A stretch of 32,592 nt of DNA from Rhizobium sp. Q54 (GTDB lineage Bacteria; Pseudomonadota; Alphaproteobacteria; UBA828): assembly GCA_945892755.1 (NCBI GenBank), contig CAMDDO010000035.1:1-32592 (forward strand), given 5' to 3'. Below are positions 19,578-26,899 of the stretch, one piece after another. A program made the position numbers and the translations under genes. Numbering within the stretch: the stretch's first letter is position 1; each line of letters opens with the position of its first letter. The notes below the pieces were generated by a model. The model was given only the letters and a program-made list of their open reading frames with translations. It was not told the origin of the DNA and did not search any database.

Positions 19578-19651
19578 TGGGGGATCGTCTAGCGGTAGGA
19601 CTGCGGACTCTGACTCCGCCAACCCTGGTTCGAATCCAGGTCCCCCAACCA
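19578..19651 (+). tRNA. tRNA-Gln (anticodon CUG)
   Basis: A complete 74-nt tRNA including an encoded CCA. The acceptor stem TGGGGGA pairs with TCCCCCA. The D-arm is GTC/GAC with a TAGCGGTAG loop. The anticodon stem GCGGA/TCCGC encloses the loop CTCTGAC, giving anticodon CTG. The T-arm CCTGG/CCAGG encloses TTCGAAT. All stems are perfect and it reads CAG codons. Confidence 0.96.
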
Positions 19652-23078: not shown

Positions 23079-24044
23079 ATGCCAACCACACACCGCTCGA
23101 AACTCCTCATCATTGGTTCCGGCCCGGCCGGCTACACCGCCGCGATCTACGCCGCGCGCGCCAATCTGAAACCGATTCTGGTGCAGGGTCTCGAGACTGG
23201 CGGCCAGCTGATGATCACGACCGACGTCGAGAACTACCCGGGCTTCGCCGAAGTGGTCCAGGGCCCTTGGCTGATGGAACAGATGCAGGCGCAGGCCGCC
23301 CATGTCGGCACAAGGCTGATCGCCGATCTGATCACGCGGGTGGATTTCTCAGGGCGACCGTTTGTCTGTCTCGGCGATTCGGGCGATAGCTATGTCAGCG
23401 ACGCCGTGATCATCGCGACCGGCGCACAGGCGCGCTGGCTCGGGATCGAGAGCGAGGAGCGCCTCAAGGGCTTCGGCGTATCGGCCTGCGCGACGTGTGA
23501 CGGCTTCTTTTTCCGCGACAAGGAGGTCGCCGTGATCGGCGGCGGCAACACCGCGGTCGAGGAGGCGCTCTATCTCACACACCACGCGCGCAAGGTGACG
23601 GTCGTGCACAGGCGCGATGCCTTCAAGGCAGAGAAAATCCTGCAGGATCGGCTGTTCAAGAACCCGAAAGTAAACGTGGTCTGGAACCATGTGGCCGATG
23701 AAATTCTAGGCGGCAGCGAGCCAAAGGGCGTTTCGGGCTTGAGGCTGAAGAACGTCAAGACCGGCGCGACCACGACCCTCGCGCTCGACGGCGTATTCAT
23801 CGCGATCGGCCACACGCCCAATACCGCGCTCTTCAAGGGCCAAATCGAGATGGATGGCGAAGGCTATGTCCACACCGTACCCGGCAGTACCGTGACCAGC
23901 CTAGCCGGCGTGTTCGCGGCGGGCGACGTACAGGACAAGATATTCCGTCAGGCCGTCACCGCGGCCGGAACCGGCTGCATGGCCGCGCTCGAAGCCGAAA
24001 AATATCTCGCTACCGCCGACGCGAAGGCAGAGGCGGCCGAATAA
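23079..24044 (+). CDS. trxB: thioredoxin-disulfide reductase
   Basis: A cytoplasmic NADPH-dependent flavoprotein of 321 aa that reduces thioredoxin. The FAD-binding GSGPAG is at 13-18 in LLIIGSGPAGYTAAIYAARA. The redox-active CATC (Cys137, Cys140) lies in SACATCDGFFFRDK. The NADPH-binding VIGGGNTAVEEALYL is near 154, and the second FAD motif GVFAAGDVQDKIFRQAV is near 283. GGAG lies 8 nt before the ATG. A lysR gene follows 19 bp after the stop, an arrangement common in alphaproteobacteria, so both are probably co-transcribed. Confidence 0.96.
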   Translation: MPTTHRSKLLIIGSGPAGYTAAIYAARANLKPILVQGLETGGQLMITTDVENYPGFAEVVQGPWLMEQMQAQAAHVGTRLIADLITRVDFSGRPFVCLGDSGDSYVSDAVIIATGAQARWLGIESEERLKGFGVSACATCDGFFFRDKEVAVIGGGNTAVEEALYLTHHARKVTVVHRRDAFKAEKILQDRLFKNPKVNVVWNHVADEILGGSEPKGVSGLRLKNVKTGATTTLALDGVFIAIGHTPNTALFKGQIEMDGEGYVHTVPGSTVTSLAGVFAAGDVQDKIFRQAVTAAGTGCMAALEAEKYLATADAKAEAAE

Positions 24045-24063: not shown

Positions 24064-24954
24064 ATGGATTGGGACAAACTCCGCATCTTCCATGCTGTGG
24101 CCGAAGCCGGCAGCTTTACCTCGGCTGGCAAAGAACTAAACATGAGTCAGTCGGCGGTCAGCCGACAAATCGCCGCGCTTGAGCAAGATCTCGCCGTTAC
24201 CCTTTTCCATCGTCATTCACGCGGCTTGATCTTGACCGAACCGGGCGAGACGCTGCGCGAAACCGCGCGCGAGGTGTTCGCCAAGCTCGCCATGACCGAG
24301 GCCGCGCTCAGCGAAAGCCGCGATCGGCCGAGCGGCCGATTGACCATCACGACGACGGTCGCGTTCGCGTCGATTTGGCTGACGCCACGCTTGCGCGAAT
24401 TCCATCGCCTCTACCCCGAGATCAGCTTGACGCTCCTGACCTCCGATGCCGCGCTCGACCTAAGCATGCGCGAGGCCGACGTGGGAATCAGGATCGGCGC
24501 GCCGACCGAACCTGATCTGGTCCGCCGGCACCTGATGACAATTCACAGTCATATCTACGCTTCGCCAGCCTATCTGGCCGAGGCCGGCCCACTCGACCGG
24601 CCGGCCGACCTCGCCCGCCACAGACTTATCGTCTATGGTCAGGGGCCGCTCACAGCTGTGGCGAATCCGAATTGGCTGATCGAACTTTCCGGTAACCCGC
24701 TGGCACGGAATCGCATCGTGCTCGAGGCCAACAACGTCTATTGCATGCTTCAGGCAGTCGAGAGCGGGCTGGGCATCGCCTCACTGCCGGACTATGCGGT
24801 CGCGGAACACACCTCGCTCGTGCGGGTTCTGCCGGATCTGCAAAGTCCATCCTTGGAATGCTATTTCGTCTATGCTGAGGAAATGCGCCATTCGGCGCGG
24901 CTGACCGTGTTTCGCGACTATCTTCTAAAACAGGTCGCGCGCTATCAATTTTGA
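24064..24954 (+). CDS. LysR-family transcriptional regulator
   Basis: A 296-aa LTTR. The N-terminal winged helix-turn-helix is clear (MDWDKLRIFHAVAEAGSFTS, then MSQSAVSRQIAALEQDLAVTLFHR, residues 1-52). A linker helix and the periplasmic-binding-like effector domain follow (about 90-296: GRLTITTTVAFASIWLTPRL, DVGIRIGAP, VESGLGIASLPDYAV). The effector is unknown. It is the 3' gene of a trxB-lysR pair, not divergently placed as LTTRs often are. A perfect T-N11-A dyad lies 30 bp downstream of its stop, ahead of the candidate small RNA, and is a natural target to consider. Confidence 0.92.
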   Translation: MDWDKLRIFHAVAEAGSFTSAGKELNMSQSAVSRQIAALEQDLAVTLFHRHSRGLILTEPGETLRETAREVFAKLAMTEAALSESRDRPSGRLTITTTVAFASIWLTPRLREFHRLYPEISLTLLTSDAALDLSMREADVGIRIGAPTEPDLVRRHLMTIHSHIYASPAYLAEAGPLDRPADLARHRLIVYGQGPLTAVANPNWLIELSGNPLARNRIVLEANNVYCMLQAVESGLGIASLPDYAVAEHTSLVRVLPDLQSPSLECYFVYAEEMRHSARLTVFRDYLLKQVARYQF

Positions 24955-24984
24955 TGGATCGTTCTCCTAATGAGCCGGCCATCA

Positions 24985-25001
24985 CATGCAATTTTTGCAT
25001 G
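24985..25001. promoter_or_regulatory. LysR-type T-N11-A palindromic operator candidate
   Basis: Perfect 7-bp arms CATGCAA and TTGCATG are separated by TTT, with a T (24987) and an A (24999) 11 bases apart. This is the classic LTTR recognition-site form. It lies about 45-60 bp upstream of a possible -10 (TAGATTAT at 25041-25048) for the structured RNA candidate, a spacing typical for LTTR activation. Binding is inferred. Confidence 0.4.
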
Positions 25002-25052
25002 GCTGGAATGCATAAGCCTCTATGGAAATCAGCCGGTGCCTAGATTATTTTC

Positions 25053-25245
25053 CGCAGTGCAACATGACGGTTGCGCACTCCCTCCCCCCAGCGCGCCGTC
25101 ATGTTCGGGTCCTGTCCGGTGCCTTTGGCCCGCAGGACCCGGCCTTGGGCTCGATGCCCAAGGTTGGATCTTCGGATCCAACGTCTCCCAGACGTGAAGC
25201 CTCCCTGTATACTGGCCGGGCCCTTAGGGGCCCGGCCTCTTTTTC
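25053..25245 (+). ncRNA. candidate structured small RNA (six hairpins ending in a terminator)
   Basis: Six consecutive stem-loops fill about 190 nt without a plausible gene. H1 is 25061-25105: a 10-bp outer stem, a 4-bp GCGC inner stem and a 14-nt pyrimidine loop ACTCCCTCCCCCCA. H2 is 25107-25140: 8 + 3 + 3 bp, nearly continuous. H3 is 25143-25163: 8 bp. H4 is 25164-25181: 7 bp with a TTCG tetraloop. H5 is 25182-25194: 5 bp with a CCC loop. After a single-stranded CCTCCC segment comes a 10-bp GC terminator stem with TCTTTTT. Stable tetraloops and unpaired C-rich anti-Shine-Dalgarno-like segments resemble trans-acting sRNAs of alphaproteobacteria. It shows no tmRNA, SRP or RNase P signature that I recognise. 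The 5' end is a guess from TAGATTAT at 25041. It could instead be a long 3' UTR of lysR. Confidence 0.5.
25214..25245 (+). terminator. strong rho-independent terminator
   Basis: A 10-bp all-GC stem (25214-25223 with 25228-25237), loop TTAG, is followed by TCTTTTTCCC. The U-tract is on the plus strand only, so it ends plus-strand transcription (the RNA candidate and/or lysR), not the convergent HAD gene, which stops at 25266. Confidence 0.9.
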
Positions 25246-25265
25246 CCACGTCCCGTGCCGACCGC

Positions 25266-25922
25266 TCACGCGGCCAGCAGATCGGGTAGGTGACACATGT
25301 CTTGCAAAGGCTTCGCGCCTGCAGCAATCAGGCGCTTCAAACGGCCCTGGTCTGGTTCCGATGTAGACGCATAACCATAAACCTCCATGCCGGCGGCCCG
25401 CGCCGCCTGAACCCCGGCCAAACTATCCTCGACCACGACGCAATGCTCCGGCGCGACCTGCATTTGCCGTGCCGCCAGTAGGAACAGATCGGGCGCCGGT
25501 TTGCCTCGAGCGACCTGGACCGCACTGAACAGACGGCCCTCGAACGCGGGCAGCAAGCCGGTCAGACCGAGCGTCAGTCGCATTTTCTCGGGCTCGCCGC
25601 TCGAGGCGACGCAGACGGGCATTGCCAGGGTCGCGACGGTCTCAGCGACCCCCGCCACCGCCTCGACAGCGTGGCGCAGGGCGACAAACAGGCGGTCCTG
25701 ATAGCCAGACAAAAAGTCATCGGCCAAGCGCAGACCGCGTTCGCGCGCGACCCAGTCCACCACGCTTTTCATCGAGAGCCCGCGGAACGTCGCGGCCACC
25801 TCCTCGATCGACAAGGCAAGCCCGGCCGCTTCGAGCGACCGGGCCAGCACCTGATTGCCGATCGGCTCGCTGTCGACCAGAACGCCGTCGCAATCGAAGA
25901 TGACGAGACGCTTCCGGCTCAC
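25266..25922 (-). CDS. HAD-IA family hydrolase (beta-phosphoglucomutase / phosphoglycolate phosphatase-like)
   Basis: A 218-aa HAD phosphatase or phosphomutase. Motif I is [12 protein letters not shown], with nucleophile Asp10 and Asp12. A helical cap follows. Motif II is [12 protein letters not shown], motif III is the Lys in [14 protein letters not shown], and motif IV is [18 protein letters not shown]. It starts at GTG 25922, overlapping the msrP stop by 4 nt (GTGA), so it is co-translated with msrP. The frame is open much further upstream, but homology begins at this GTG. The substrate cannot be told from sequence. Confidence 0.9.
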
Positions 25923-26899
25923 ACGAACAGGCGTTCGTTTTCGAGCCCGGCATAGAGCCCCGCCACGAACTCGCCATAGCCGTTGTAAAGCAAAGTCGGG
26001 CGGGTTTCGTCGAGACCGAGGACTCGTTCGGTCGCCTGGCTCCAGCGCGGATGCGGTACTTCGGGGTTCACATTCGCCCAGAAGCCATATTCCGATTCCA
26101 CCAATTTGGTCCAAAACGAGACGGGATAGCTCTCCTCGAAGCTGAAGCGCACGATGCCTTTGACGTGCTTGAAGCCATATTTCCACGGCACGGCGAGCCT
26201 GAGCGGCGCACCGTTCTGTTTCGGGATCGGCTTGCCGTAATAGCCGGTCGCGATGAAGGCGAGTTCGTTGGTCGCTTCCGCGATGGTCAGGCTGTCCGTA
26301 TAAGGCCAGGGATACCAGAACTGGCGCTGACCGCTCGCAACGTCGGGATTTTGGAACGTGGTCATCACCAGATACTTGGCCGAGCCGAGCGGTTTGGCGA
26401 GCTCGACCAGCGCCTTGAGCGGGAAGCCGCTATAGGGCACGGCGATCGACCAGGCCTCGACGCAGCGATGGCGATAGAGCCGCTCTTCGAGCGGCATCTG
26501 ACGCAACAGATCGTCGATCGCGATGGTGAGCGGCTTTTCGACCAGCCCGGCGATCTCCACGGTCCATGGGCGGATCGGCAGAGCCTGCGCGTCCTTCCAA
26601 ACACCCTTAGTCGAGCCGAATTCATAGTAATTGTTGTAGCGGGTGGCGACCTCTTCCGGCGTGATCGGGCGGTCGAGCGCGTAGCGCTCATTGCGCTTGA
26701 CCGGATAGAGCGATGCCGAGGGATCGACCTCTTCCTTGGCGTCTTCGCTGTGCGCCCCGATCGACCCGAGGGCGCTCGCGCCCGCGAGCGCGACGCCAAA
26801 ACCAGCCGCTTTCAGCACGGCCCGCCGGTTCCAGAAAACCGCTTCCGGGGTCGCCGCCGATTCGGGCAATTCCCAGCCGCGTCTGCGTTTGATCAGCAT
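25919..26899 (-). CDS. msrP: protein-methionine-sulfoxide reductase catalytic subunit MsrP
   Basis: A periplasmic molybdopterin enzyme of 326 aa (YedY) that repairs oxidised methionines in envelope proteins. It has a twin-arginine type signal ([21 protein letters not shown], Arg25-Arg26). Cys146 in [19 protein letters not shown] is the molybdenum ligand. Other family blocks are [14 protein letters not shown] and [20 protein letters not shown] lies about 9 nt before the ATG. Its usual haem-membrane partner msrQ is not next to it; the downstream gene is an HAD hydrolase overlapping by 4 nt. Electron supply would need an unlinked MsrQ or another donor. Confidence 0.94.

Follow-up and report, generated by a model that had tools for sequence, protein, structure and literature searches.

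Six consecutive hairpins lie between a lysR gene and a convergent HAD gene in a 32,592-nt contig of Rhizobium sp. Q54 (hereafter the window, meaning this whole stretch), raising the question of whether they form a discrete small RNA (sRNA), the tail of the lysR mRNA or a mere terminator. The preliminary description of this DNA had listed six stem-loops, among them a stem with a 14-nt C-rich loop, a TTCG-capped stem and a perfect GC terminator with a plus-strand U-tract, all of which were recovered in place in our fold. With RNAfold, the plus strand of 25053–25245 reached −111.5 kcal/mol against −72.95 ± 4.5 kcal/mol for 200 dinucleotide-preserving shuffles, none of which was as stable as the native sequence (z = −8.57). 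The opposite strand folds well too (z = −7.4), because any hairpin array would give such a fold, and it carries no U-tract at that end. The six hairpins follow in series within 25058–25244 of the plus strand (Table 1), the last being a perfect 10-bp G+C terminator whose stem (25214–25237, 10 of 10 pairs G-C) is followed by TCTTTTT. This terminator, P6, was the only one detected on either strand of 24900–25320, and it begins 260 nt past the lysR stop, the distance originally reported. Open reading frames overlap the element, and conservation there tracks RNA structure.

Table 1. Coordinates of the genes, promoter elements and RNA features of the trxB-lysR-sRNA locus in the window.
Feature	Position	Strand	Basis and remarks
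trxB, thioredoxin-disulfide reductase	23079–24044	+	TIGR01292, 409 bits (cut-off 343)
lysR, LsrB/VtlR ortholog	24064–24954	+	Best PDB match 9hh1, trxB neighbour; proposed activator of the sRNA
LysR dyad ATGC-N7-GCAT	24986–25000	+	Conserved class-wide; de novo motif
Predicted LsrB site GCATGGCTGGAAT	24997–25009	+	Exact fit to the published consensus GCAT-N3-TG-N3-T
−35 region	25021–25026	+	TGG at class-conserved 25023–25025; column consensus of 75 promoters
−10 hexamer TTATTT	25045–25050	+	Class-conserved position; T/A/T at +49, +50 and +53 from the half-site
Predicted sRNA	25058–25244	+	About 187 nt; start ±3 nt, from box spacing, promoter columns, terminator and fold
Hairpin P1	25061–25105	+	C-rich loop ACTCCCTCCCCCCA at 25077–25090, an anti-SD segment varying within the family
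Hairpin P2	25106–25141	+	Pairing kept though stem letters vary among genera
Hairpin P3	25143–25163	+	Fold and family comparison
Hairpin P4	25164–25181	+	TTCG cap; fold and family comparison
Hairpin P5	25181–25195	+	CUCCCA at 25185–25190, motif M1 of Brucella AbcR
Linker P5-P6	25196–25213	+	Single-stranded GAAGCCUCCCUGUAUACU with anti-SD GCCUCCCUG at 25199–25207; deeply conserved
P6 intrinsic terminator and U-tract	25214–25244	+	Terminator scan

The setting had been taken for a plain gene-free gap. The interval 24955–25057 carries a predicted promoter with an LsrB box, and the locus itself is the lsrB/vtlR locus, which carries the AbcR sRNAs in Rhizobiales. The lysR product matched the Agrobacterium tumefaciens LsrB structure 9hh1 in the PDB with an E value of 9e-81, compared with 5e-36 for the second-best entry, and the trxB-lysR gene order was found again in relatives. 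In Agrobacterium, AbcR1 and AbcR2 lie directly downstream of vtlR/lsrB, itself behind trxB (PMC7486931). An LsrB-type regulator beyond Rhizobiales conflicts with a 2025 paper in which LsrB was called unique to that order on the basis of a small comparison (PMC11975290). Cysteines 144, 236, 244 and 273 of A. tumefaciens LsrB correspond to V, V, S and V in the window protein; since all four are replaced, the signal of the window LysR may differ, the thiol redox sensing proposed for LsrB may be absent from it and redox control cannot be assumed. Behind the HAD gene lies msrP, encoding the catalytic subunit of methionine sulfoxide reductase (25919–26899, minus strand), and an msrP-like gene stands near trxB-lsrB-sRNA in relatives too (for example at loci L003, L004, L006 and L013), making this a redox-repair neighbourhood.

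In the Sinorhizobium meliloti AbcR1 promoter, the sequence GCAT-N3-TG-N3-T at −61 to −49 is required for activation by LsrB, according to the account of that promoter in PMC8844928. The window carries GCATGGCTGGAAT at the corresponding place, and transposing the published spacing therefore predicts a transcription start at about 25058. The exact 13-mer consensus occurred in 23 of 85 loci, against 1.15 expected. An expectation-maximization (EM) search of the lysR-sRNA intergenic regions, run without being given the published consensus, returned AGcCATGC-N6/7-GCATg with a log-likelihood of 821, compared with 105–116 for shuffled sequences, and ATGC-N7-GCAT was present in 66 of 84 such regions, compared with 0.94 expected. 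When 75 promoters were aligned on this box, G at +8 and T at +12 were conserved, corresponding in the published LsrB site to the G in TG and to the final T, together with TGG at +26 to +28 (−35) and T/A/T at +49, +50 and +53 (−10); the window promoter fits every conserved column. A 5′ hairpin of the form TTGC-N-GCAA, where present in these intergenic regions, begins at a near-fixed distance. The conserved promoter at fixed spacing therefore favours an independent transcript over a lysR tail, consistent with the discrete alphaproteobacterial sRNA that the preliminary description had proposed, and lysR read-through into the P6 terminator likely occurs as well.

A DNA search found the 3′ part of the element in 28 of 60 related genomes, and the core TACGUCUCCCAGACGUGAAGCCUCCCUGUUnnACU with its terminator is almost identical letter by letter across families. 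The CUCCCA-loop hairpin, the GCCUCCCUG linker and the terminator hardly vary among the 193 alphaproteobacterial genomes, of 385 scanned, that matched R1, a covariance model built for the core whose training sequences came from the same genome set. Genomes with the exact-pattern core include Azospirillum, Inquilinus, Reyranella, Roseomonas, Belnapia, Kiloniella, Nisaea, Tistlia, Magnetovibrio, Minwuia and Caedibacter. Besides the linker columns, which are invariant or nearly so, the two helices of this 3′ module show the compensatory changes by which the RNA was originally to be judged: in 91 aligned matches, 96% of cells in P5 and P6 are standard pairs and two-sided changes occur at 16 of 17 pairs (10 of 10 in P6, 6 of 7 in P5), a substantial number even though fitting the alignment to the model favours the structure. 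None of 500 shuffles reached any of five covariation measures, and sliding the partners by one column lowered the pairing to about 41%.

The core is also tied to its regulator gene. Among the matches listed, 107 genomes had both the LysR gene and R1, and in 97 of them the core lies at most 6 kb downstream of the lsrB-type gene on the same strand, with no case of the other orientation; again among the matches listed, the core lies within 1 kb of the LysR gene in 86 LysR genomes, mostly at 141–340 nt. Where an lsrB locus had no R1 match among those listed, a diverged version was often present instead, with hairpins that have CUCCC loops, with CCUCCCUGU and with a terminator; some of these loci hold tandem copies, each with its own box. 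The f43 genomes provide an example (L218, L219 and L220), in which tandem CUCCC-hairpin copies behind lsrB have separate upstream boxes, recalling the tandem AbcR1/AbcR2. Core copies unlinked to lsrB, without lysR, exist as well. The small genomes G254, G264 and G034 have several R1-type cores away from lsrB, six of them in G254 on contigs C20, C29, C36 and C63, which suggests expansion as free-standing sRNA genes.

The 5′ half is far more changeable. In the window's family (21 genomes, with the core in 14), P1–P4 recur in the same order with differing stem letters, and genera g6 and g3 have an additional hairpin between P4 and P5. In a comparison of helix arms, which is biased in that the arms were taken from folds and is supportive only, own arms were 95% paired in P2 against 49% for swapped arms and 97% against 72% in P3, with little contrast in P1 and P4; the P1–P4 evidence comes from this one family, in which full-length MAFFT/RNAalifold alignments misaligned P1–P3 and their pair counts there are unreliable. 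The C-rich P1 loop is retained in the three genomes of the window's own genus, reads CCTCCC in most of g6 and g3 and is replaced by a short loop in genus g5. The number of anti-SD modules therefore varies while the 3′ core stays fixed. Of the two candidate anti-Shine-Dalgarno segments named at the outset, the linker (25200–25205) is deeply conserved, and the loop (25078–25089) is real but family-variable, a lineage-specific extra; that list had missed the conserved CUCCCA of the P5 loop (25185–25190).

We then compared the element with known sRNA families. As the preliminary description had found by eye, no family could be assigned, in that nothing at the site reached an Rfam gathering threshold in a covariance search; the window's only match at that level is a tRNA-Gln (anticodon ctg) at 19578–19651 on the plus strand. 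At E values up to 10, the best match at the site was SorX with 27 bits, followed by other C-rich sRNAs and by ar8/MmgR with 24.7 bits. The ar15 model, which describes AbcR (RF02345, gathering score 40 bits), gave no window match up to an E value of 10 and none over its cut-off in 385 genomes of the class, so most of the class escapes the model or its prefilter. We therefore rejected a filing under ar15 by model score, and with that failure the case for kinship with AbcR is one of locus, promoter and anatomy.

In these three respects the likeness is close. AbcR carries motif M1 CUCCCA in its first hairpin, an anti-SD segment between hairpins and a terminator, from a gene downstream of trxB-vtlR. 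Like AbcR1 and AbcR2 of Sinorhizobium, Agrobacterium and Brucella, the window element lies just downstream of trxB-lsrB/vtlR on the same strand, has the LsrB box at −61 to −49 of its predicted start, as in AbcR1, and shows CUCCCA in a hairpin loop, a second C-rich anti-SD segment between hairpins and then the terminator. The rhizobial AbcR RNAs silence genes for nutrient uptake by masking the ribosome-binding sites. The CUCCC-type motifs of AbcR, in the loop and between the hairpins, base-pair with messages encoding transport proteins or enzymes of metabolism, and binding-protein mRNAs are probable targets in the window's genome too. By contrast, the predicted RNA of about 187 nt has the extra hairpins P1–P4, the ar15 model being 112 positions long, its linker is GCCUCCCUG rather than GUUCCC/UUCCCCUC, and there is one copy instead of an AbcR1/AbcR2 pair. 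The element thus looks like an unannotated relative of AbcR, possibly by common ancestry, judged from locus, promoter and anatomy rather than sequence and by comparison with AbcR as the literature describes it.

By sequence, the nearest Rfam family is SorX of Rhodobacter (RF02784), which shares the CCUCCCUGU linker followed by the GGCCGGGC terminator and represses the ABC-transporter mRNA potA. The window's 27 bits lie under the SorX cut-off of 46.6, and the lsrB-linked locus of a relative (L231:2811–2878) exceeds it with 51 bits, hinting that SorX and the window's sRNA family may be related. SorX itself is released from the 3′ UTR of an OmpR-type regulator gene by cleavage of the mRNA (PMC9438474), and the same kind of origin could be proposed here: the sRNA would be cut from the lysR mRNA, with a mature form of 60–75 nt consisting of P5, linker and P6 and with the 5′ hairpins as precursor. 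The 3′ module is indeed the most conserved part, and the terminator scan found none between lysR and the element. However, the upstream gene here is of LysR type and is followed by a class-conserved promoter in which LsrB box, −35 element and −10 element keep constant distances; such a promoter would be needless for a purely processed RNA, and we consider such a 3′ UTR origin unlikely, although it is the most credible of the alternatives.

The weak RF00519 match led us to the ar8 family (MmgR/SisA-D), which has a similar weak C-rich hairpin, a single-stranded CCUCCCU core, a terminator and anti-SD action, so that the element could be a diverged ar8 member placed behind lsrB by chance. Its 24.7 bits are below the gathering score of 41, R1 in turn gave strong ar8 loci at most 34 bits compared with 76.7 for the window, and in several genomes a strong ar8 gene occurs at one place and an R1 gene at another. 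No comparable 5′ hairpin array is found in ar8, and the window's own genome has a weak, sub-threshold ar8/MmgR-like match elsewhere (G000, C32:33716–33794, minus strand, 28.6 bits). Given these poor mutual scores and different loci, we rejected the filing under ar8 and regard membership in that family as quite improbable. NfeR1 of S. meliloti also has several anti-SD motifs per RNA and ABC-transporter targets, as PMC8844928 describes; by contrast, the Rfam scan of the element returned no NfeR1-type family, and NfeR1 is not known to be linked to lsrB. A literature text search of 5.39 million papers for the core sequence verbatim found no relevant paper printing those letters. The element is best called a class-wide variant of anti-SD sRNAs that Rfam does not detect above threshold.

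To look for possible targets, we searched the window's own genome for the complementary pattern AGGGAGGC at 2–8 nt before ATG, which occurred 14 times, against none for the reversed pattern. The genes so marked include three ABC binding proteins, two of Peripla_BP_6 type (the second on contig C86) and one of SBP_bac_1 type, together with xanthine-dehydrogenase-type, LigB, thiolase, FAA-hydrolase and similar catabolic genes. A GGGAG Shine-Dalgarno sequence preceded 9 of 13 Peripla_BP_6 genes compared with 79 of 381 sampled genes in this genome (p = 3e-4), with a single rule applied to heuristic gene starts and a background of 40 stretches of up to 20 kb; with hand-picked starts, the count was 11 of 13. 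Genes preceded by TGGGAGA, which is complementary to the P5 loop, were not visibly enriched in binding proteins as judged from N-termini in the same genome, and the control pattern AAGGAGGC there marked mostly non-genes and no evident binding protein. The GGGAG excess at binding-protein genes fits an AbcR-like uptake regulon, a correlation rather than proof. The C-rich segments might instead make the RNA a sponge for G-rich RNAs or other sRNAs, as CUCCC does join sRNA-sRNA pairing in Caulobacter, where CrfA, a sponge rich in G and A, captures sRNAs of the ar8 family (PMC12559287); in that pair, however, the C-rich partner is the mRNA repressor and not the sponge, making this role here very improbable. 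Least probable of all is that the array merely terminates or stabilizes the trxB-lysR transcript, for although it holds the sole terminator found after lysR, the invariant letters lie in loops and linker and not in stems alone, the promoter is conserved and unlinked core copies occur without lysR.

Taking these observations together, we propose that the element is an independently transcribed, LsrB/VtlR-activated, trans-acting sRNA of about 187 nt that performs the role of AbcR1 in Alphaproteobacteria outside the rhizobia, a reading to which we assign a probability of roughly 0.82. LsrB would bind the dyad at 24986–25009 and bring RNA polymerase to the −35 and −10 elements at about 25021–25050, with transcription beginning near 25058 and stopping at the P6 terminator. 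The resulting sRNA, with whatever need for Hfq it may have, would expose up to three CUCCC segments, one in each of the P1 and P5 loops and one in the linker, and every one of them would pair with a GGGAG-type Shine-Dalgarno sequence and block ribosome binding. Through such pairing, messages for high-affinity ABC-transporter binding proteins and for some catabolic enzymes would decay more readily.

LsrB/VtlR and AbcR form a regulatory pair in bacteria that live in symbiosis with plants or infect animals, and our findings extend it to roughly one in two of the alphaproteobacterial genomes sampled, among them Azospirillum, Roseomonas, Reyranella, Kiloniella and Caedibacter. Further work can draw on the R1 covariance model, the promoter motif and a set of targets open to testing. 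We tentatively raise the further idea, which we hold to be somewhat short of even odds, that the circuit of LsrB/VtlR and an anti-SD sRNA is ancestral to Alphaproteobacteria, with rhizobial AbcR, rhodobacterial SorX and possibly ar8 descending from one CUCCC sRNA. If this is true, the circuit would be a founding nutrient-uptake brake of the class, missed by annotation since its loops persist whereas its stems change, as do the numbers of hairpins and of anti-SD segments.
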